Source of the DNA: Gloeobacter violaceus PCC 7421 | GTDB taxonomy: Bacteria > Cyanobacteriota > Cyanobacteriia > Gloeobacterales > Gloeobacteraceae | Length of the DNA: 64,000 nt | Reading direction: 5' to 3' | Assembly: GCF_000011385.1 (NCBI RefSeq) | Contig: NC_005125.1 | Location: forward strand, 434,001 to 498,000 | Shown here: positions 9,819-40,350 of the stretch, piece by piece | How the letters are laid out: each line of letters begins with the position of its first letter | How positions within the stretch are numbered: position 1 is the stretch's first letter | Position numbers and translations under genes: made by a program | The notes under the pieces: generated by a model | What the model saw: the letters and a program-made list of their open reading frames with translations, nothing else | Databases searched by the model: none | Told to the model about the DNA's origin: nothing

Positions 9819-11105
9819 GTGGATGCTCTGCGCTCTATGCCCTTCACATCCGGAGCCCTGGTTCAAGATCGCTACTTGCTCGAACGCCAGTTGGGCTCGA
9901 CGGGAGCCCGGCAAACCTGGCTGGTGCAAAACTCGGCTACCGGCCAAGCGCTGACGCTCAAAGCCCTGTACTTCGGCACCGGGATGGACTGGCGGAACCT
10001 GGCGCTGTTTGAGCGCGAAGCCCAGACCCTCAAAAGTCTCGATCACCCGCGCATCCCGCGCTACCACGAATTCTTTCAGTGGCAGCAACCGGAAGGGGAC
10101 TACTTTTGTCTGGTTCAAGATTACATTCCCGGCGTGTCTCTCGCCGAGCAGGTACACAGCGGCAAGCGTTGGAGCGAGGCGCAAATCGAGCAGGCGGCCC
10201 TCGAAATTCTGGAGATCCTGGATTATCTGCACAGCCTGGCCCCGCCCGTGGTCCACCGCGACATCAAACCGAGCAACGTGATCTGCGGCGAGGACGGGCG
10301 TCTGTATCTGGTGGATTTCGGTTCGGTCCAGGCGGAGCAGGTGAGCGGACGAACAGTAACCGTGGTGGGCACCTACGGCTACATGGCACCCGAACAATTC
10401 GGCGGAAGAGCAGTCCCGGGTTCCGATCTTTACAGTCTGGGAGCAACGCTTGTTCATTTGGCCACAGGGATGAACCCTGCCGATCTTGTCGATGGCGGTT
10501 TCCACATCCGGATCCCCGAGCAGCTGCCCTTGAGCCCCGGCCTGCGGCACTGGGTGGAAAAACTTGTCGATTCCGATCCGGAGCGGCGCTTCAAAAACGC
10601 CCGCGAAGCGATCTCGGGTCTGCGGTGCAAAGATTCGCTCGCGCATCCCTCCGAGACCACCTACCAGGGCCGGATCGCCCTTCGCCCCGGCCGGGAGAGG
10701 TTCTGCGTCGAAGTGGCTGCCCGCGAACCCGCCTTCGAGGACATCCTCACCGGTTTTGCCTGCTTTATTTTGTTTGTGATCGCCACTGCTTCGACCCACA
10801 CCCTCAAAGTGCTCGAACCCGGCGACGGCCTGACCGTGTGGATATTCATGGTGCTGTTGACCGTCGGATTTTGGGGGGTACTGGTGTTCACAGCGAGCAA
10901 CACACTGCTTCGGCTGTTGTGCTGCACGTGTCTTGAAGTGGATCGTGAGCTATTTACCCTCAGCCATTGGATTCTGGGAAAACGCATCTTTAACAAATCC
11001 GGGAGGGTCATGGCTTTGCTGGGCAAGCAGCGTTTGAGCTTCGATCTGACAACGGCTGAGCACCACTTGATCCTGGCGCACGTCCAGCGCTGGCTGAACC
11101 GATAA
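9819..11105 (+). CDS. Membrane-anchored Ser/Thr protein kinase (Hanks type)
   Basis: Protein kinase of 428 residues with all core motifs. A glycine loop region lies near residue 20, HRDIKPSN has His146 and Asp148, the DFGS motif has Asp166, and GTYGYMAPEQF forms the P+1 region. The kinase domain ends near 275. Two hydrophobic helices follow (ILTGFACFILFVIATA and WIFMVLLTVGFWGVLVF), so it is held in the membrane with both termini probably cytosolic. A short tail after about residue 350 is not recognised. The start is uncertain: GTG at 9819 or ATG at 9837; no strong ribosome site decides it. Partners cannot be read from context. Confidence 0.88.
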   Translation: MDALRSMPFTSGALVQDRYLLERQLGSTGARQTWLVQNSATGQALTLKALYFGTGMDWRNLALFEREAQTLKSLDHPRIPRYHEFFQWQQPEGDYFCLVQDYIPGVSLAEQVHSGKRWSEAQIEQAALEILEILDYLHSLAPPVVHRDIKPSNVICGEDGRLYLVDFGSVQAEQVSGRTVTVVGTYGYMAPEQFGGRAVPGSDLYSLGATLVHLATGMNPADLVDGGFHIRIPEQLPLSPGLRHWVEKLVDSDPERRFKNAREAISGLRCKDSLAHPSETTYQGRIALRPGRERFCVEVAAREPAFEDILTGFACFILFVIATASTHTLKVLEPGDGLTVWIFMVLLTVGFWGVLVFTASNTLLRLLCCTCLEVDRELFTLSHWILGKRIFNKSGRVMALLGKQRLSFDLTTAEHHLILAHVQRWLNR

Positions 11106-12648: not shown

Positions 12649-14322
12649 TTAGTTGATGAACACTTGCCCCGCCTTGATGGTCACCGTCATCGGCGCTTCG
12701 ATCGTGATCGAGCCCGTGGCGTCGTCGAGTTTGATAAAACAGCCCCCCGGTGTGCGCAGCTCCATGAACTGGTCGGTCTCGTTGATCTGGATTTGATAAT
12801 TGTCGGCGGTGCGGATGTAGATCCCTTTTTTGTCCGGCGGCGTGTCCTCGTCGGCAAAGCGCAGATAGTGGCCGACACGGGTCTTCATCGTGCGCAACTT
12901 CACCGGGGTGAGCGAATCGTCCACCGTCTCGGGGGTGTCGTCCTTGCCGTTCCAGACGCCGCCCACCACGTAGGGGCGGTGGATGTCGCCGTGCTCGAAG
13001 CAGACGAGCACTTCGTCGTTGACCTCCGGCATCCAGTAGATGCCGTGCTTGGGTCCGGCGCCGGGGCCGACGACACGCGCCCAATTGCTCTCGTGCTCCT
13101 CGGTGAGGGTGGGAAATTTCACTTTCACCCGCCCCATGCCCTCGGGGTCTTTGTTGTTGGTGACGATGCCCACCAGGTTGGTCTGGCCGGGTTTGAGCTT
13201 GGGCTGGGGCGACAACCCCGTCATCAGATTGCCGCCGCGGGTGCCGCGCACGCTGAATTCGGTGGTGTAGACCAGGTCGTGGTAGAGGTGGCGCGCGTCG
13301 GTGACGTAATAATCGCCCGTCAGCTTTTCGCCCAATCCGGTGAGCTGCACCAGCCGCCCCGGCCGTACCTTCGGCTCGCCCTCGGCGCGGGCGTCGGCAA
13401 AGATATATTCGCCTCCCATCTCGTCGCAGATAGCCTGGGCCATGGTGTCGGCCTCCTGGGCGTTGAAGACGGGATGATCGACCACGACCAGCTTCGGTTG
13501 GAGGTCGAACTGGCTATTGGAGGAACTGCCCGGTTCGTAACCGGTCTTGGTGACCACCTGTTCGCTCTGGGCGGTGGCGACGATCGTCTTTTTCTCGATG
13601 TAATCCCAGCTGCGCACCTCGACGGAACTCACCTGCTCAGCCGTGCTCATGCGCACACGAAAGGCATTCAGCCGCACACCCCAGCGCAGTTGCACCGGCT
13701 CGATCTGCCGCGGCCGGTGGAAGTGCACCTGTTCGTCCTGCACAAAAAACTCGAACCCGATGCGCGCCGCCCGTTCGCGCAAAAACGCCATGTTGGTCTG
13801 GTTTTCTTGAAAGACATAGTCGTGGGGGATGCCGCTTTCTTCGATCTCGCCGCCGGCCTGCAGGCCCACCTCCGCCACGATCTTGCGGACAATGTCGCTG
13901 TCGGTCATGTTGACGAACGAACGGTTGAAGCGGCCCTTGTGCAGCCGATGGGACATGTCGTAGCCGCGCAGAACCATCGGGGCGGAGGGATCTTCGGTGA
14001 AGTGGGTCTCGATGCCGGTAATCTCACCCACCAGCAGCTTCGGCAGGGCGTTGTCCGCCATGAACTCCGGCGCGGTCGTGGTGGCGGCGCGAAACCCGAA
14101 GGTAATCTTTGCACCGACTTTGAGGGCCGGGTGGTTGATCCAGTGGTGGATGTCGCGCATCCGGCCCGGGGTGAAGGGGTTGTGCAGGATGAGCGTAAAG
14201 GCGTCGGGCAGGTGCAGGCTCTCCTCGACACAGATCTGCTGGGTGCTGATGACGAGCTGATCGGTGTCCTCGGCGCTCATCCCGTCGAGGGTGATATTGG
14301 GCTTCGAGTTGTACTTTGGCAT
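12649..14322 (-). CDS. VgrG-like spike protein of a contractile injection system (Pvc8/Afp8 type)
   Basis: Predicted trimeric tip hub and needle that sits under the inner tube and pierces the target. The protein is 557 residues. The N-terminal two-thirds is the phage late-control D fold, with the conserved stretch around IPHDYVFQENQTNMAFL and LRERAARIGFEFFV. An OB-fold gp5-like domain follows (LVGIVTNNKDPEGMGRVKVKF to WMPEVNDEVLVCFEHGD). The C-terminus is a short beta-helix-type spike (GSITIEAPMTVTIKAGQVFIN). No effector extension is fused to the tip. It is the last gene of the minus-strand CIS block, 42 bases after the gp53-like gene. Confidence 0.92.
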   Translation of the reverse strand: MPKYNSKPNITLDGMSAEDTDQLVISTQQICVEESLHLPDAFTLILHNPFTPGRMRDIHHWINHPALKVGAKITFGFRAATTTAPEFMADNALPKLLVGEITGIETHFTEDPSAPMVLRGYDMSHRLHKGRFNRSFVNMTDSDIVRKIVAEVGLQAGGEIEESGIPHDYVFQENQTNMAFLRERAARIGFEFFVQDEQVHFHRPRQIEPVQLRWGVRLNAFRVRMSTAEQVSSVEVRSWDYIEKKTIVATAQSEQVVTKTGYEPGSSSNSQFDLQPKLVVVDHPVFNAQEADTMAQAICDEMGGEYIFADARAEGEPKVRPGRLVQLTGLGEKLTGDYYVTDARHLYHDLVYTTEFSVRGTRGGNLMTGLSPQPKLKPGQTNLVGIVTNNKDPEGMGRVKVKFPTLTEEHESNWARVVGPGAGPKHGIYWMPEVNDEVLVCFEHGDIHRPYVVGGVWNGKDDTPETVDDSLTPVKLRTMKTRVGHYLRFADEDTPPDKKGIYIRTADNYQIQINETDQFMELRTPGGCFIKLDDATGSITIEAPMTVTIKAGQVFIN

Positions 14323-14364: not shown

Positions 14365-14931
14365 CTAACCGGTCGGGGTGCGGGCGCTGCGCGAATCTGT
14401 CTGCCGGTTGGCCGCCCCGGCGTTGTCCCCCTGGGAGCCCGCGGCGATGTCGTCCACCTCCTGGAGCTTGAGGGTGATCATCGCCCGCACCGGATCGCCG
14501 TTGGGCAGAAACATCGTGTAATTGTAGGTCAGTGTGGTGACCACGCAGCGCAACTGGATGTTGGAGCCCATCGTGAACATGTAGACCAGAGGCCGTTTGC
14601 GGTTGAGCAGGCCGCCGTCGGCGGCTCCGTCCGCACCGGCGGTCGCATCGGAGACCTGTTTGGGGGAGACGGCGTCCTTGAGCGCATCGATATAGGACTG
14701 GCAGGAGGAGCGCGACTCGTAGGTGTCGATGAGCATGTTCTCGATTGTCACCTGGTAAGGTTTGACGCCTTTGTAGTCGGTGCTGGGCAGGGTGTCGTTG
14801 TTGCCGACCGAACCTTTGTTTTCTTTCCACTCCACCGTGCGCGTAAACGAGATGGCGCTCGGGTTGTACAAGAACGTGATCGTCGAGCCGCCGCCTTCTT
14901 GGGGGACGAGTTGGGCCTTTACGAGGGTCAT
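14365..14931 (-). CDS. Contractile injection system hub adaptor (gp53/Pvc7-like, no LysM)
   Basis: A 188-residue protein that in related particles links the tail tube to the spike. The opening (MTLVKAQLVPQEGGG, FLYNPSAISFTRTVEWKE) is typical of the CIS tube/adaptor N-terminal domain, where a membrane-protein-like YNP-x-S-I motif recurs. The region around TMGSNIQLRCVVTTLTYNYTMF continues that fold. Pvc7/Afp7 proteins often carry a C-terminal LysM domain; here the tail is a short Gly/Ala/Ser-rich stretch without one. GGAG lies eight bases before the ATG. It is placed between the giant repeat protein and the spike, matching the usual adaptor-then-spike order. Confidence 0.87.
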   Translation of the reverse strand: MTLVKAQLVPQEGGGSTITFLYNPSAISFTRTVEWKENKGSVGNNDTLPSTDYKGVKPYQVTIENMLIDTYESRSSCQSYIDALKDAVSPKQVSDATAGADGAADGGLLNRKRPLVYMFTMGSNIQLRCVVTTLTYNYTMFLPNGDPVRAMITLKLQEVDDIAAGSQGDNAGAANRQTDSRSARTPTG

Positions 14932-14964: not shown

Positions 14965-24798
<9,834 letters not shown>

Positions 24799-24800
24799 CG

Positions 24801-25331
24801 CTAATTACTGCCGAAGTAGCCGCTCGCGTCGCGGGTCAGGTTCATCATCGCCCCGCCGCCGCCGCTTCTCTGGATGCGCAGGCCCTCGTAGGAGACGATC
24901 ACCTGCTCAATGGCCGCCGTCGCGTTCTGCGCGGGCAGGTTCGCCATCAACTGCGGACCTTTGAAGCCGGTCACCACCGCGCCGATCAGGGTCCAGCACT
25001 GCATGGTTTCGCCCGCCTGATTGAACAACACGATGTTGATATTGCGCCGTTTGGTCGGGGTGGCCGGATCGAGCGACCCGTAGGCCCACTCCCAAAAAGT
25101 GAGGCTGTCGGTGATGCCGCGCTGGAGGGTGACATCGCTGTAGGTCACCGGCCCCAGGTAGATGCGCTCCTGCTCGTTGACCCCGCCCTCGGCGTAGGAA
25201 TTTTTCTTCATCGTGAAGCCGATGCCGCTGCACTGCATGAACGACGCGGTCAACTCGCTGTCGATCTCGACGTAGAAGCGGTTGGGCAGAACGTAGTTCA
25301 GTTCGTGGACGACGTTGCCGTTTTGTGCCAT
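24801..25331 (-). CDS. Contractile injection system tail tube protein (gp19/Pvc5-like)
   Basis: Inner tube subunit of 176 residues, usual for the T4 gp19/Hcp-related tube family. The motifs NYVLPNRFYVEID, MQCSGIGFTMKK and RNINIVLFNQAGETMQCWTL are typical; the family forms stacked hexameric rings inside the sheath. The ATG at 25329-25331 overlaps the upstream stop as TGATG, which suggests translational coupling; a TTG one codon earlier is not needed. Only one tube gene is seen here, while complete CIS loci usually have two or three tube paralogues, so others may lie elsewhere. Confidence 0.92.
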   Translation of the reverse strand: MAQNGNVVHELNYVLPNRFYVEIDSELTASFMQCSGIGFTMKKNSYAEGGVNEQERIYLGPVTYSDVTLQRGITDSLTFWEWAYGSLDPATPTKRRNINIVLFNQAGETMQCWTLIGAVVTGFKGPQLMANLPAQNATAAIEQVIVSYEGLRIQRSGGGGAMMNLTRDASGYFGSN

Positions 25332-25606
25332 CAAAAGTGCCCCCCGTAGTCGCGTCCGCGCTCGCGGTGCCGATCCAGCTCGTCGCGCATCAGTTCGTAG
25401 ACCCGGTCGCTCAAGCGGCGCATCACCAGGTGGCTTTTGAGCACTTTGCCCGCCTGCAGCATCAGCGCCAGTTTTTGCTTGTTGCGCGTCTGCAAAGCGG
25501 CGCCTGCGGCCGTGCCTGCGGCCGAGTGCGCCTGAGCGGCGGGTGCCTGAACGGGTGAGGCGTGGAACCGGGTTTCGAGCTGGGGCGGTTTGGAGTTGAA
25601 ATCCAT
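25331..25606 (-). CDS. Small CIS-locus protein with conserved basic helical tail
   Basis: A 91-residue protein of unknown function, translationally coupled to the tube gene through TGATG. The first half is Ala/Gln-rich and probably flexible. The C-terminal half is helical and ends LSDRVYELMRDELDRHRERG. This matches the end of the giant protein (LAQEIYGLLRQRLEVERERSG) in the pattern L-x3-[IV]-Y-x-L-[LM]-R-x2-L-x3-R-E-R. Tails like this recur in other CIS-locus proteins, so the motif may bind one common particle component. It is not a Pvc6/DUF5908 protein by eye. The family cannot be named with certainty. Confidence 0.72.
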   Translation of the reverse strand: MDFNSKPPQLETRFHASPVQAPAAQAHSAAGTAAGAALQTRNKQKLALMLQAGKVLKSHLVMRRLSDRVYELMRDELDRHRERGRDYGGHF

Positions 25607-25703: not shown

Positions 25704-26339
25704 TCAGGCGATGGCCACCTTGAACTGCACCAGGTTCTCGCGGCCCAACTGCAGCGTGTCGCCGTCCACCAGCTGGTAGGAAACCCCCGGGGTGAGCGGT
25801 TGGCCGTTGACGAAGGTGCCGTTGCGGCTGTTGTTGTCGGTGATCGTGTAGGTGGCGTAGGCGGCGTCCCAGAGGATACAGGCGTGGGGCCGCGAGATGA
25901 CCTGATCGTTGGGGATGCCGGTCAGATCAATTTCGGGAGCCGGTTTGACCGTGCCGCCGCGCCGGCCGATATAACTTTCGTCGCCCGGCGCTGCGAATTC
26001 GCGGCCGATGAGCGCGTGCACCAGTTTGAGCGTCGGCCGCCCCTGGGAGGCAGGCGGCGCGGCGGCCGGGGCGACCGGCGGCTGTGGGTAGGCGGCGGGA
26101 GCGGGCTGTGGGTACGCGGGCGGCGGGGCGGCCGGCGCGTAGACGTGCGGCGGCGGGGCCGGCTGCTGGTAGGGCGAGACGATAGGCGGCGGCGGTGGAG
26201 CGGCGGCGACCGGGGCGGCGCTGCCGCTGCGCACGACGTTACCGAGGGGTGTGCCGCACATCGGGCAGACCTGGGCGGTGTTGGGCAGTGTCCGGTTGAA
26301 GTATTCGCACTGCGGATTGGGGCACTTGGGAGCGGCCAT
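25704..26339 (-). CDS. Zinc-ribbon / FHA-domain protein
   Basis: A 211-residue cytosolic protein. The N-terminus is a zinc ribbon (CPNPQCEYF, then CPMCGTPLG). A Pro/Ala-rich linker runs from about 35 to 105. A C-terminal FHA domain follows, with YIGRRGG, ISRPHACI and NNSRNGTFVNG, the phosphothreonine-binding residues of the fold. FHA domains read Thr phosphorylation by Ser/Thr kinases. It lies 11 bases downstream of the pseudokinase gene and about 100 bases before the CIS structural genes, so it is probably in the same transcript. Whether it controls the CIS is an inference from context and from FHA proteins of type VI secretion. Confidence 0.87.
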   Translation of the reverse strand: MAAPKCPNPQCEYFNRTLPNTAQVCPMCGTPLGNVVRSGSAAPVAAAPPPPPIVSPYQQPAPPPHVYAPAAPPPAYPQPAPAAYPQPPVAPAAAPPASQGRPTLKLVHALIGREFAAPGDESYIGRRGGTVKPAPEIDLTGIPNDQVISRPHACILWDAAYATYTITDNNSRNGTFVNGQPLTPGVSYQLVDGDTLQLGRENLVQFKVAIA

Positions 26340-26350
26340 GGCGGTACCGT

Positions 26351-28441
26351 TTACTTGTTGGACAGCGGCAGTGGGACGACGCCCAGTTTTTCAAGATACT
26401 GCTGGCCCTGGCGGGTCGTCAGCAATTCGGCAAATTTGAGGCCGGAGGTCGGCCGGCTGTTGTCGCGGGGATAGACCACGGCCAGGGGAAAACCGAGCGG
26501 GTAGCGCCGCTGGGTGAACGCCCCGGCGTCGAGACGAAAGGCCTTGGCGCACAGGTTGACGTTGGGGTGGATGGGCCGGCCGTCGAAGCGCGGGTCGGTC
26601 TGCACCAGCGGCTGGATTTCGCCTTTGCCCTGATCGAGGGCCAGCGGATAGCCCGAGCACTGGTCGAAGGCTTTGACCAGGGTGCTGAAGGCGATGATCC
26701 CCGAGCGGTTGTTGTCGAATTCGGGCAGCACCAGCCGCTGGGTCTCCTTGGTGGGCAACACCGTCGCCAGGCTGCGGAAGGTGGCGACGCGCTGGGGGTC
26801 GTTCCCCAGTACCAGCCGCTCGAACATGCGCACAGCCTCCGGTTCGGTGGGGGCAAACAGTCGCACCGGCAGATCCGGCCCGCCCAGATCCTTCCAGTTG
26901 CGGACCTTGCCGGTGTAGAGCTTCTGGAGATTTTCGAGGCTGATCTTGCCCCCCAGGGCGTTGGGCAGGTTGCGCGGTTTTTTGCTGAAGGCGACGTAGA
27001 CCACCAGCCCATCGATGGCGATGGGCTTGCTCTCCAGTTCATCGCTGAGATCTTCGGTCAGGCTGGTGATCGCAAAGTCGGTGCGGATAAGCTGCACCAG
27101 CCGCACCGCTTCGCTCTCGGTGTCGATCTTGGGGGAGACGACGGGCGCAAAGCGCATCTCGACGCGGGCGCGCGGCTCGGTGAGCAGGTCGACAAGCCGC
27201 TGGTCGTCGGCGGGTTTGCCCTGCAATAGATAGCTCCAGGTGCCGTCGCGCTCGGCGGCGTAACTAAATGTGCCCTCCGGCACGCCGCTCACTTCCGCAA
27301 AGCTCGCCACGCGCGTGTCGATCTGGGGCGGCTTCGGGAACCAGCGCTCCAGTTGGGGCCAAAAAATAAACAACAATCCGGCGATCATCGCGAGCAATGC
27401 GAACGCCAACAGCGCAAAAAGGGTCAGGTTGGCTTTGTCCTTTTTGTCGTACTCGACCGGGGCGCTCACCGCTGCGAATTGCTCTTCTCCCGGCAATTTG
27501 AGCAAAGCCGCCCGCGCCGCCTCGGCCGTCTCGAAGGGCACATCGAGGCCCATCAGCCGGTACAGGTACTCCTGCAGACGCGGCTCCACGGCCGGCCACT
27601 GCTGCGGGTCGCGCGGGTCGAAGTAGCCGCCGGTGGCCGGGTTGACCAGTTGACCGGTCAGCAGAAAATACGCCACGTACCCGAGGGCGATCAGATCGTG
27701 CTCGGGCAGCGGCTCGTCGGCCACCGCCGGAGGCGGGTCAAACAACTGCTCCCAAAGGGCCAGATCGCAGACGTAGACAAAAAACTGCGCCCCGCCCCGG
27801 CTGATGAGCAAACTGTCGAGGGTGAGATGTCCGTGGGCGAGACCCGGCTGCACCTGGCCTGAGGGCAACCGAAATTTCTGGCTGTGCAGAAACTGCAGCG
27901 ATTGGAGCACCTGGTTGAGCACCGAGCGCACCTGGGCCGCGTTCATCGGGCCGCTTTCGGCCAGATGCCGCGCGAGGGTGGGCGACGCTTCGAGCGCGCC
28001 TTTGGTCACCAGATAACACCGTTCGCCCTGCTCGTCGGCGATCGCTTCCCAGGGGCTGACCAGCCGAAAGTCCTGGTTTTTGCCGTCGGCGGGCAATAGA
28101 CCCGCCACCCGCTTGAAGGCGTCCTTGCGCTGGCGGGTCTCGGCTTTGTTGAAGCAGCGGCTGGGAAGCAGGTACTCCTTGACGACGCACGGCTGGTTGT
28201 CCCCCGCCTGGATCGCCTGGTAGAGCCTGCCCATGCCGCGGGTGCCCACGAACTTGACGATCCGGTAGGTACCACGCGTGCCGCGGATCTCGGATTTTTC
28301 GGCCAGCAACGTCGGAAAGCCGCATTCCTGGCAGAATTTGGCCCCGGGGATCTGCTGGGCGGTCTGTACGAGCACGTCGCAATTGAGCGGCATGTTGCGC
28401 GAACAGCGGTAAGCCTTGTAGGAAGTTTCAAACAGTTGCAT
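26351..28441 (-). CDS. Pseudokinase - TM - PstS-like binding-domain fusion
   Basis: A 696-residue membrane protein. The start at 28439-28441 has GGAG eight bases upstream; a 28-codon upstream extension has no such site. The N-terminus has paired cysteines (YRCSRNMPLNC, FCQECG), probably a zinc ribbon. A kinase fold follows with a glycine loop (VGTRGMGRLY) and the beta-3 lysine (CVVKEYLLP). However, the catalytic loop reads HGHLTLDS instead of HRDxKPxN and the metal loop reads DLALWE instead of DFG, so phosphotransfer is unlikely. One membrane segment (LFALLAFALLAMIAGLLFIFW) leads to an outside domain of the PstS/PBP-like-2 family (IDGLVVYVAFS, LQKLYTGKVRNWKDLGG). It reads as a sensor coupling an outside ligand to an inside binding platform. 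Confidence 0.85.
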   Translation of the reverse strand: MQLFETSYKAYRCSRNMPLNCDVLVQTAQQIPGAKFCQECGFPTLLAEKSEIRGTRGTYRIVKFVGTRGMGRLYQAIQAGDNQPCVVKEYLLPSRCFNKAETRQRKDAFKRVAGLLPADGKNQDFRLVSPWEAIADEQGERCYLVTKGALEASPTLARHLAESGPMNAAQVRSVLNQVLQSLQFLHSQKFRLPSGQVQPGLAHGHLTLDSLLISRGGAQFFVYVCDLALWEQLFDPPPAVADEPLPEHDLIALGYVAYFLLTGQLVNPATGGYFDPRDPQQWPAVEPRLQEYLYRLMGLDVPFETAEAARAALLKLPGEEQFAAVSAPVEYDKKDKANLTLFALLAFALLAMIAGLLFIFWPQLERWFPKPPQIDTRVASFAEVSGVPEGTFSYAAERDGTWSYLLQGKPADDQRLVDLLTEPRARVEMRFAPVVSPKIDTESEAVRLVQLIRTDFAITSLTEDLSDELESKPIAIDGLVVYVAFSKKPRNLPNALGGKISLENLQKLYTGKVRNWKDLGGPDLPVRLFAPTEPEAVRMFERLVLGNDPQRVATFRSLATVLPTKETQRLVLPEFDNNRSGIIAFSTLVKAFDQCSGYPLALDQGKGEIQPLVQTDPRFDGRPIHPNVNLCAKAFRLDAGAFTQRRYPLGFPLAVVYPRDNSRPTSGLKFAELLTTRQGQQYLEKLGVVPLPLSNK

Positions 28442-28584
28442 TGCGCAACTCCTGCCCGGGCTGGAACCTGTAGTAGAAGAATGCCGGTACTGCCACGGAT
28501 CTAGCCAAGAATCTAACACAGCCATTTTCCCTAGGGAGGTAAGCTGGGCGTGTGCAGCGACCAGCGCCGCGTTGAGAATTGGCC

Positions 28585-29721
28585 ATGCATATCACCATCG
28601 AATGCCTGACGGGCTCCCTGGCGGGAAAAGTGCTTGCCTTCGATCAAGAAGAGATCAGCCTCGGGCGGGGCGAACAGAAAGAAAAGGACATCGATTTTGC
28701 CGACATCGACATCGGTGTCTCCCGCAACCACGGCCTGATTGCCATCCGCGCCGGGCGTGTCGTGTTCACCGATGCGAGCCGGGGCGGCACCCTGGTGCGT
28801 GGCCAACGCGTCAACAACGACTCGGTGGAGTTGCGCTCGGGCGACGAATTGCAACTCGGGGGACCGAGCGGCCCGCGTCTGCGGGTACGCTACCGGGCTC
28901 TCACCCAAATTGTCGAGCCGGGACGGATGCACACCCAGATGCCGGACCCGCCCGAGACGCTTATAGATTTGCCGCCGGCACCGCTGCCGCCGCCGCGCCC
29001 GGTCGCCGCGCCGCTGCCACCCGTTGCCGCGGCCATGCCCGCCGATGCGACGGCGATCCAGCCGCCGAGTGCCCCACCGCTTCCTCAGATTACGGCCCAG
29101 CCGGCACCGTCGCCCAATGGCACAGCGCCCCTGCCCTTGCCGCCGGTGAGCACCCCACCGCCGCCTTCCCAGCAGCAGACGATGCTCCAGATGCCGCCGG
29201 CCCCATCCCCGAGCGCCCCCACCGTACCGCCCCCTCCACGTCCGGCGGTGGTACCGGCGCCGAGCGCCCAGGCGCCCTACGTTCCACCGGTGCCGCCAAT
29301 GGGCGGTGAGACATTCTTCCAGCAAACAGTCGATCCCGACGCAACGGTCTACCACCCCCAGGCACCGTCCGCTCCACCTGTCCCGGAGGAAACATTCTTT
29401 CAATCCTTCGCCGCACCGTCCGCTCCCTCAGCCAGACCGGCTCCTGCCGCCCCGAACGCCAATTCCTACATTCCGCCTGAACAGCAGACGATGCTGCAAA
29501 CACCGGCACCGGTCATCGACAGCAATCCGACGCTGCTGCAAGAACCCGCGCAGTTCCCCTGGCTGTTGGTGACTTTATTCGCCCTGGGCGTGCTCGCCCT
29601 GCTGGCTGTGATCTGGGTGTTCTTGCTGCGCCAGTCGGTGGCCTTTTTTATCCCGGTGCCGCTGGTGCTGCTGCTGGGGCTGGGCTGGTTTTTCTACCAA
29701 AGTCGCAAAGCGGCCGGCTAG
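28585..29721 (+). CDS. FHA-domain protein with Pro-rich linker and C-terminal membrane hairpin
   Basis: A 378-residue protein. An N-terminal FHA domain covers about residues 1-105 (ISLGRG, GVSRNHGLI, RGGTLVRGQRVNNDS). A long Pro/Ala/Gln linker follows, with repeated QQTMLQ and ETFFQ segments that could hold phosphorylation sites. Two hydrophobic helices close the protein (WLLVTLFALGVLALLAVIWVFLL, FFIPVPLVLLLGLGWFFY). The ATG at 28585 is preferred to a TTG two codons earlier. It is transcribed divergently from the pseudokinase gene across about 140 bases, so the two may share a control region. Its 3' end overlaps ssb by four bases. Function is inferred only from the FHA fold. Confidence 0.85.
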   Translation: MHITIECLTGSLAGKVLAFDQEEISLGRGEQKEKDIDFADIDIGVSRNHGLIAIRAGRVVFTDASRGGTLVRGQRVNNDSVELRSGDELQLGGPSGPRLRVRYRALTQIVEPGRMHTQMPDPPETLIDLPPAPLPPPRPVAAPLPPVAAAMPADATAIQPPSAPPLPQITAQPAPSPNGTAPLPLPPVSTPPPPSQQQTMLQMPPAPSPSAPTVPPPPRPAVVPAPSAQAPYVPPVPPMGGETFFQQTVDPDATVYHPQAPSAPPVPEETFFQSFAAPSAPSARPAPAAPNANSYIPPEQQTMLQTPAPVIDSNPTLLQEPAQFPWLLVTLFALGVLALLAVIWVFLLRQSVAFFIPVPLVLLLGLGWFFYQSRKAAG

Positions 29722-39306: not shown

Positions 39307-40350
39307 ATGCAGACCAACAAGTGGACCCGCAGGGCTTTTGTTTCGGTAGTGGCTCTGGCTTCACTCGCTTCTCCCCTGTTGACGCAGGTCGCCCACGCCC
39401 TGACCCTCAGCGGCGCCGGCGCAACGTTCCCGCAGCCACTCTATGAAAAGTGGTTCTTCGAGTACAACAAGAAGAACCCCGATGTCAAAATCAACTACCA
39501 GGGCATCGGCAGCGGCGGCGGCATCAACCAGATCACCAACAAGACGGTTGATTTCGGCGCTTCCGACGCGGCAATGAACGACGAGCAGCTCGCCAAGGTC
39601 GGCGGCTCCTCGAAGATGCTGATGCTGCCCATGACCGCCGGTGCAGTGGCTATCACCTTTAACGTGCCCGGTGTGAAGTCGGGTTTGCGGATCACCCGCG
39701 TGGCTTTGACCGATATTTTTCTGGGCAAGGTCACCAAGTGGAACGACCCGGCCATCGCCTCGGTCAACCGCGACGTCAAGCTGCCGGATTTGCCCATCGC
39801 CGTGGTGCGCCGCTCCGACAGCTCCGGTACGACCTTTATCTTCACCAACCACCTGTCGGCGATCAAATCCTCGGATTGGTCCGAGAAAGTCGGCAAGGGC
39901 ACCTCGGTGAACTGGCCCACCGGCATCGGCGCCAAGGGCAACCAGGGCGTCTCCGCCCAGGTCCAGCAGACTCCCGGTGCGATTGGCTATGTCGAGTACG
40001 CCTACGCCACCGAGAACAACCTGCCGGTGGCCGCGGTCGAAAACCGCGAAGGCAAGTTCGTGCTGCCGACGGTCAAGGCGACCGAGACCGCCCTCGACGG
40101 GACCAAGTACCCCGAAAATTTCCGCGTCTTCATCGAAGATCCGGACGGGGCCGGTTCCTATCCGATCGTGGGCCTCACCTGGCTGCTGGTGTACAAAGAA
40201 GGCAACGACAAGGCCAAGGCCGCTGAACTGAAGAAGTTCGTCAACTGGGCCTTGACCGAGGGGCAACAGTACGTCGAGCCCCTCAAGTACACCCCGCTGC
40301 CTGCCGCCGTCTCCAAAAACGTGATCAAGGCGGCCGAGCAGATCAAGTAA
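39307..40350 (+). CDS. pstS: Phosphate ABC transporter substrate-binding protein
   Basis: Periplasmic phosphate binder of 347 residues. The export signal has two adjacent arginines (KWTRRAFVSV) before a hydrophobic core and ends near AHA. The TRRxFV pattern is close to a twin-arginine motif, although most PstS proteins use Sec. The binding loops GAGATFPQPLYEKWF, GSGGGINQITNKTVDFGASD and RSDSSGTTFIFTNHL are typical. It is first in pstSCAB and lies 65 bases downstream of Pho-box-like repeats, so it should be induced by phosphate limitation. Confidence 0.95.
   Translation: MQTNKWTRRAFVSVVALASLASPLLTQVAHALTLSGAGATFPQPLYEKWFFEYNKKNPDVKINYQGIGSGGGINQITNKTVDFGASDAAMNDEQLAKVGGSSKMLMLPMTAGAVAITFNVPGVKSGLRITRVALTDIFLGKVTKWNDPAIASVNRDVKLPDLPIAVVRRSDSSGTTFIFTNHLSAIKSSDWSEKVGKGTSVNWPTGIGAKGNQGVSAQVQQTPGAIGYVEYAYATENNLPVAAVENREGKFVLPTVKATETALDGTKYPENFRVFIEDPDGAGSYPIVGLTWLLVYKEGNDKAKAAELKKFVNWALTEGQQYVEPLKYTPLPAAVSKNVIKAAEQIK

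Follow-up and report, generated by a model that had tools for sequence, protein, structure and literature searches.

We describe a membrane protein of Gloeobacter violaceus PCC 7421 in which a pseudokinase is fused to a PstS-like outer domain and which is tied to one type of cyanobacterial contractile injection system (CIS), a phage-tail-like machine. Its gene lies in a window of 64,000 nucleotides (the whole stretch of DNA analyzed) from a complete chromosome of 4,659,019 bases (Table 1). Co-inheritance with a single CIS type indicates that the fusion protein is probably the membrane dock or trigger of that CIS and not a phosphate sensor. Our main reading, to which we give a probability of roughly 0.5, is that the protein would be a dedicated CisA-like membrane receptor that docks the CIS and licenses its firing through a cytoplasmic platform of pseudokinase and FHA protein; the topology, the docking to the particle, the control of firing, and the phospho-dependent recruitment of the FHA protein are the parts of this mechanism that we infer.

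Table 1. Features of the fusion gene and its surroundings, in window coordinates
Feature	Position	Strand	Basis
Pseudokinase-membrane helix-PBP fusion gene	26351..28441	-	696 aa
N-terminal four-Cys module (C13, C21, C37, C40)	28322..28405	-	Pattern in 84/86 members tested (63/65 + 21/21)
Pseudokinase domain, residues 51-315	27497..28291	-	Model, structure matches, alignment of 116 homologues
HGHLTLDS, residues 203-210, replacing HRDxKPxN	27812..27835	-	HRD position without Asp in 116/116 homologues
DLALW, replacing DFG	27752..27766	-	Asp kept in 114/116, Gly replaced
Single membrane helix, residues 339-367	27341..27427	-	Predicted model
PstS-like (PBP-like-2) outer domain, residues 389-694	26360..27277	-	Pfam, structure matches, residue alignment
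PTEPEAV (531-537), aligned to the PstS loop of Arg/Ser/Gly/Thr phosphate contacts	26831..26851	-	Alignment
Zinc-ribbon FHA protein	25704..26339	-	FHA, E 9e-16; 11 nt downstream of fusion gene
Second FHA protein with C-terminal hydrophobic segments, divergent from fusion gene	28579..29721	+	FHA, E 6e-11
Small conserved CIS-cluster protein	25331..25606	-	Conservation in clusters
CIS tube protein	24801..25334	-	Phage_T4_gp19, E 7e-35
3277-aa variable-length protein between tube and LysM-like genes	14965..24798	-	Position common to shorter proteins in relatives
Small baseplate-type protein (presumably LysM/Afp7-like)	14365..14931	-	Conserved beside spike gene
CIS spike (VgrG-like)	12649..14322	-	Closest solved chain 9gtr, Streptomyces CIS, E 1e-44
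True PstS	39307-40350		PBP_like_2, E 7e-44

The association with the CIS was measured across 388 cyanobacterial genomes, 94 of which carried the fusion. The fusion and one sheath type occurred together in 88 genomes, the fusion alone in 6, the sheath alone in 11, and neither in 283 (the sheath threshold was set in a clear gap in the per-genome best E values, about 1e-120 versus about 1e-80). Genomes with only other sheath types carried the fusion in 2 of 58 cases. The Fisher P value of 1e-66 ignores relatedness, and the better argument is therefore that genomes of the same family have either both genes or neither. A sample of 59 genomes yielded 15 with the fusion, 14 of them with this sheath type; the fifteenth was a fragmented assembly with a tube match only. 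In at least 25 genomes, the fusion and sheath genes lay no more than about 35 kb apart on the same contig. In several genomes, the fusion gene is not adjacent to the sheath and is sometimes far off; in Gloeobacter, the sheath cluster (C1:4298235) and a gp25-like baseplate gene (C1:1517329) occupy two further places in the chromosome. Gene content was read from the best 80 of 148 matching loci, a Nostoc-rich set with no fusion relatives from outside the cyanobacteria. Within the fetched flanks of these best 80, we counted the tube at 48 loci, the sheath at 45, an FHA gene at 59, and a histidine kinase/response regulator pair at about 60. The recurring order is sheath, histidine kinase, response regulator, fusion, FHA, tube, LysM-like, and spike. 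These associations support the functional tie to the CIS that a preliminary description of this DNA had suggested, and far more strongly than the sequence alone could show.

That CIS is related to the one found in Streptomyces. The Gloeobacter sheath matched Streptomyces CIS sheaths at E values of 5e-125 (8bky) and 3e-122 (8bl4) versus 4e-54 for the Anabaena thylakoid CIS, and the spike showed the same preference (structure entries were linked to the Streptomyces CIS through the data statements of the papers). These matches, together with the co-occurrence, place the fusion with a CIS of this kind. The thylakoid-anchored CIS of Anabaena resembles the proposed system in being a cyanobacterial CIS at a membrane; we rejected it as the same system because of its more distantly related sheath and because the paper names no kinase, FHA protein, or PBP (PMC8894136). 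Its anchoring is by Cis12 and Cis13. Elsewhere in the window cluster, the 3277-aa protein had no Pfam match and is perhaps a tape-measure or cargo protein. The small baseplate-type protein had no NCBIfam match; its LysM/Afp7-like name is an assumption based on its position. Counterparts of the 3277-aa protein are much shorter (e.g., 977 aa in G010 and 1894 aa in G014) and similar at the ends alone. Small proteins starting (Q)TEFEFTLPKGYLD, frequently encoded twice, rank with the best-conserved products of the CIS clusters (L050:7407-7790, L059:13519-14241), and the Gloeobacter copy had no Pfam or NCBIfam match.

The reading frame of the fusion gene spans 26351-28525 (-), and an in-frame start at 28525 is possible; comparison with homologues shows that the homology begins near the ATG at 28441, the likely start. 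A copy with 98% identity is present in a MAG filed as Aphanocapsa lilacina. In order from the N terminus, a four-Cys module leads into the kinase fold, which a membrane helix connects to the PstS-like domain. We ruled out a frameshifted N terminus, since the odd Cys-rich start is conserved across homologues; the module is missing from some diverged members. The AlphaFold2 model (35 aligned sequences) had a mean pLDDT of 86 and a pTM of 0.50, as expected of two domains linked through a helix, and it resolved both domains confidently with the single helix between them. Lys and Arg residues averaged 3.55 per 15 residues before the helix and 2.25 after it, a bias compatible with an N-in orientation. 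The predicted architecture fits the single membrane helix and the inside/outside design that the preliminary description had put forward.

The inner domain has a bilobal kinase fold, matching the structures of PknA, PknB, and Stk1 over residues 46 to 324 with Z scores of 18 to 19.6. The Pfam Pkinase model reached an E value of 0.002 on the fusion, short of its cutoff, and matched 8 of 35 homologues at E ≤ 0.001. The beta-3 lysine (K88) is present, and the catalytic and DFG motifs read HGHLTLDS and DLALWE (residues 226 to 231), which bears out the original assignment as a pseudokinase. Among 116 homologues, the position of the HRD aspartate holds Asn (110), His (5), or Gln (1), that of the catalytic-loop Lys mostly Asn, Ser, or Thr, and that of the catalytic-loop Asn Ser, Thr, or His. 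None of them has the catalytic Asp in a shifted position; the conserved acid at 209 aligns with a noncatalytic site. Of the 116, 110 retain the beta-3 Lys and 114 the DFG Asp, and E89, W230, G71, and H203 are invariant or almost so. Judged from the alignment, the domain is a pseudokinase family-wide, with the loss of the catalytic Asp common to all members examined. Because the beta-3 Lys and the DFG Asp persist, the domain may still bind nucleotide. The universal absence of the catalytic Asp beside other nearly fixed positions suggests that the fold is selected for something besides phosphotransfer. PADLOC gave a partial kinase-fold match to the PD-T4-6 defense kinase (E value of 1.9e-13, residues 20 to 189 of 696); we rejected an anti-phage reading because the kinase models match only partially and the context is a CIS.

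The outer domain is clearly related to the PBP-like-2 family, as had been proposed. Pfam PBP_like_2 matched the fusion at an E value of 4.6e-6, right at its cutoff, and 32 of 35 homologues at E ≤ 0.001, and the fold aligned with structures of PstS and phosphate-binding proteins with Z scores of up to 22.6. Unlike PstS, it has a pseudokinase attached and phosphate contacts that are replaced throughout the family: Arg, Ser, Gly, and Thr have given way to Pro (Pro531, 114/116), Glu (Glu535, 112/116), Ala (93/116), and Ile, Val, or Leu. The stand-alone cyanobacterial PBPs (ten examined) retain the GGST(T/S)W and GGT or SGT motifs. The replacements argue against a phosphate ligand, and the reporting of phosphate or another anion suggested in the preliminary description is not supported by these residues; some ligand besides phosphate is possible. 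The true PstS noted at 39307 was confirmed. It lies about 10.9 kb from the fusion gene; the genes after it look like those of an ordinary phosphate transporter, and nothing visible ties it to the CIS; phosphate sensing linked to this protein was rejected, given the lost contact residues of the fusion.

In several cyanobacteria, a gene for an active four-Cys-prefix kinase (HRDIKPSN or HRDIKLSN, with DFG) directly precedes one for a membrane-anchored PBP whose motifs are intact. Such adjoining pairs were seen at loci L173, L174, L175, L176, and L179. Pairs of this kind (e.g., L173, L174, and L175) share with the fusion the order of four Cys, kinase, membrane helix, and PBP, but in them the kinase and the PBP are separate genes, the former with active motifs (HRDIK, DFG) and the latter with its motifs intact; they are possibly an unstudied anion-responsive kinase system of cyanobacteria. 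In a PBP-domain tree, the fused members formed one group on a long stem in 200 of 200 bootstrap trees (root and true sister group not settled). The simplest reading would be a single fusion event, after which both sites were lost.

The zinc-ribbon FHA gene may be the functional partner of the fusion. It adjoins or overlaps the fusion gene at 59 of the best 80 of 148 loci (overlap lengths are approximate, as gene starts were taken at the first Met), and its phosphothreonine-binding residues and four Cys are invariant (60/60). Its match to the TagH model was weak (E value of 7e-8, below the cutoff). No FHA gene stands beside the fusion at 21 of these 80 loci, so the FHA protein is not essential everywhere. 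The second FHA gene also adjoins the fusion in other Gloeobacter genomes and in G004. A search for a phospho-acceptor Thr specific to FHA-linked members gave nothing firm, since the enrichment at positions 45, 108, 130, and 187 reached about two-thirds in a Nostoc-rich sample. In Gloeobacterales, an active-looking Ser/Thr kinase (HRDIKPAN) with N-terminal Cys residues is encoded beside the sheath and tube genes (L059:14669-15541(+), L036:5107-5955(-), L070:12374-13246(-)) and is a candidate source of the phosphothreonine bound by the FHA protein. Near the spike end of the window cluster (9819-11105 (+)) lies the gene of a further Ser/Thr kinase, in which the HRDIKPSN and DFG motifs are intact and hydrophobic segments occupy the C-terminal part.

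In many genomes, a gene pair for a histidine kinase and a LuxR-type response regulator recurs next to the sheath or the fusion (L062:16737-18569, L066:15429-17293, L094-L172) and likely provides transcriptional control of the CIS. The fusion had initially been suggested to report to the CIS operon; its tie to the CIS stands, and this two-component pair is the better candidate for controlling the operon. The fusion more likely docks or gates the particle. In some genomes with the fusion away from the CIS, a CHASE2-domain membrane protein, perhaps an alternative sensor, is encoded next to the tube gene (L066:8232-9944(-), L065:14789-16444(+), L136, L137, L145).

In the mechanism that we propose, the fusion protein would cross the membrane once, with its N terminus inside and its SBP-fold domain toward the periplasm (or the lumen in thylakoid-bearing species). 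Its cytoplasmic part would dock the CIS particle or baseplate at the membrane and license firing, with the kinase domain acting as a noncatalytic binding platform. At loci that encode an FHA partner, phosphorylation of a threonine by another, active Ser/Thr kinase could recruit the FHA protein, in the manner of MviN and FhaA. The model for this role is CisA (SCO4242), a bitopic protein with a solute-binding-like outer domain that is needed for firing of the Streptomyces CIS and is proposed to act by bringing the particle to the membrane and setting off its firing (PMC12237407). Compared by description only, CisA and the fusion are both CIS-linked, and the single pass, the cytoplasmic N terminus, and the outer position of a solute-binding-like domain described for CisA are predicted for the fusion; the CIS of Streptomyces coelicolor has the sheath and spike closest to those of the fusion-linked CIS. 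The cytoplasmic part of CisA is largely unstructured, whereas that of the fusion is a pseudokinase with a Cys module; the outer domains measure about 160 and about 305 aa, respectively; and an FHA partner is not described for CisA, whereas an FHA gene lies next door to the fusion.

Other membrane kinases and pseudokinases offer precedents for single elements of this mechanism. According to a review, the MviN pseudokinase recruits FhaA in mycobacteria, a membrane pseudokinase platform that, like the fusion, works with an FHA protein (PMC12599244). As described there, MviN differs in having lost all three motifs and ATP binding, in its carbohydrate-binding outer domain, and in its role in peptidoglycan synthesis (PMC12599244). 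The same review presents EssB/YukC as a membrane pseudokinase that scaffolds the type VII secretion machine; unlike the fusion, it serves another machine, has another outer domain, and has all motifs and the glycine loop degraded (PMC12599244). PpkA-Fha demonstrates that FHA signaling can control a contractile machine, that of type VI secretion, and PpkA shares with the fusion the order of kinase fold, membrane helix, and periplasmic domain and the FHA protein (PMC6082577). PpkA is an active kinase, whereas the fusion has no catalytic Asp and hence not the HRD/DFG pattern of a PpkA-type kinase, and the fusion-linked CIS is of the Afp/Streptomyces kind.

In our analysis, the CisA-like receptor is suggested by the co-occurrence, the gene order, the Streptomyces-like sheath and spike, the loss of the catalytic Asp beside other nearly fixed positions, the intact FHA partner, the active kinase in the Gloeobacterales CIS locus, and the MviN and EssB precedents. 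Against it stand the unstructured cytoplasmic part and smaller outer domain of CisA, the loci without an FHA gene, the search that singled out no phospho-acceptor Thr, and the fusion genes that lie off the sheath. More tentatively, the proteins may form an undescribed pseudokinase family, derived from a fused kinase/PBP pair with both sites lost, that docks the CIS and licenses firing through an FHA phosphothreonine adaptor as the counterpart of CisA.

The fusion could instead be a purely structural membrane anchor of the CIS or its baseplate, without sensing or gating. Both of its active sites are degenerate, type VII secretion has a membrane pseudokinase, EssB, as a scaffold, and the connector Cis13 anchors the Anabaena CIS; the strongly conserved residues of the outer SBP fold and the intact phosphothreonine reader next door suggest regulation, and we consider a mere anchor rather unlikely. 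A receptor for a small molecule other than phosphate, whose signal would pass via the pseudokinase to either the CIS or an active kinase, just as receptor pseudokinases activate partners, would fit the SBP fold, the stand-alone relatives with intact motifs that adjoin active kinases, and the conserved acids E397 and E535, which lie in or near the old anion site and could suit a different ligand. With the phosphate contacts replaced, no ligand nameable, and a partner kinase linked in few loci outside Gloeobacterales, such a receptor is clearly improbable. It is very unlikely that the fusion is a noncanonical enzyme moving phosphate or AMP onto the FHA protein, like PpkA on Fha: the HRD Asp, the loop Lys, and the loop Asn are all lost, and the acid at loop position 209, conserved as it is, aligns with a noncatalytic residue of HRDLKPEN, even if the beta-3 Lys (110/116) and DFG Asp (114/116) are kept, an FHA gene is linked, and SelO and SidJ show alternative chemistry in pseudokinases. 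An unrelated gene that happens to neighbor the CIS, as its distance from the sheath cluster in some genomes might suggest, has next to no chance of explaining the 88/6/11/283 co-occurrence, the shared contigs in at least 25 genomes, and the recurring gene order.

Literature joining a CIS with a pseudokinase, with a kinase and FHA protein, or with Gloeobacter yielded nothing on the fusion protein (most subscription journals were outside its scope). Every part of the fusion has a precedent; the combination, the tie to a CIS, and the double loss of active sites were not found in this literature. How a CIS that is kept inside the cell locates the membrane and decides to fire is an open question, and CisA is the sole such factor described in Streptomyces. 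The fusion protein would be a second candidate CIS receptor, one whose cytoplasmic domain is predicted to be folded and whose FHA partner is defined, and it links a family of pseudokinases to a concrete machine. It occurs in Nostocales, where genetics is often feasible. Its pairing with an FHA protein suggests that phosphothreonine signaling may control CIS firing, as it does in type VI secretion.
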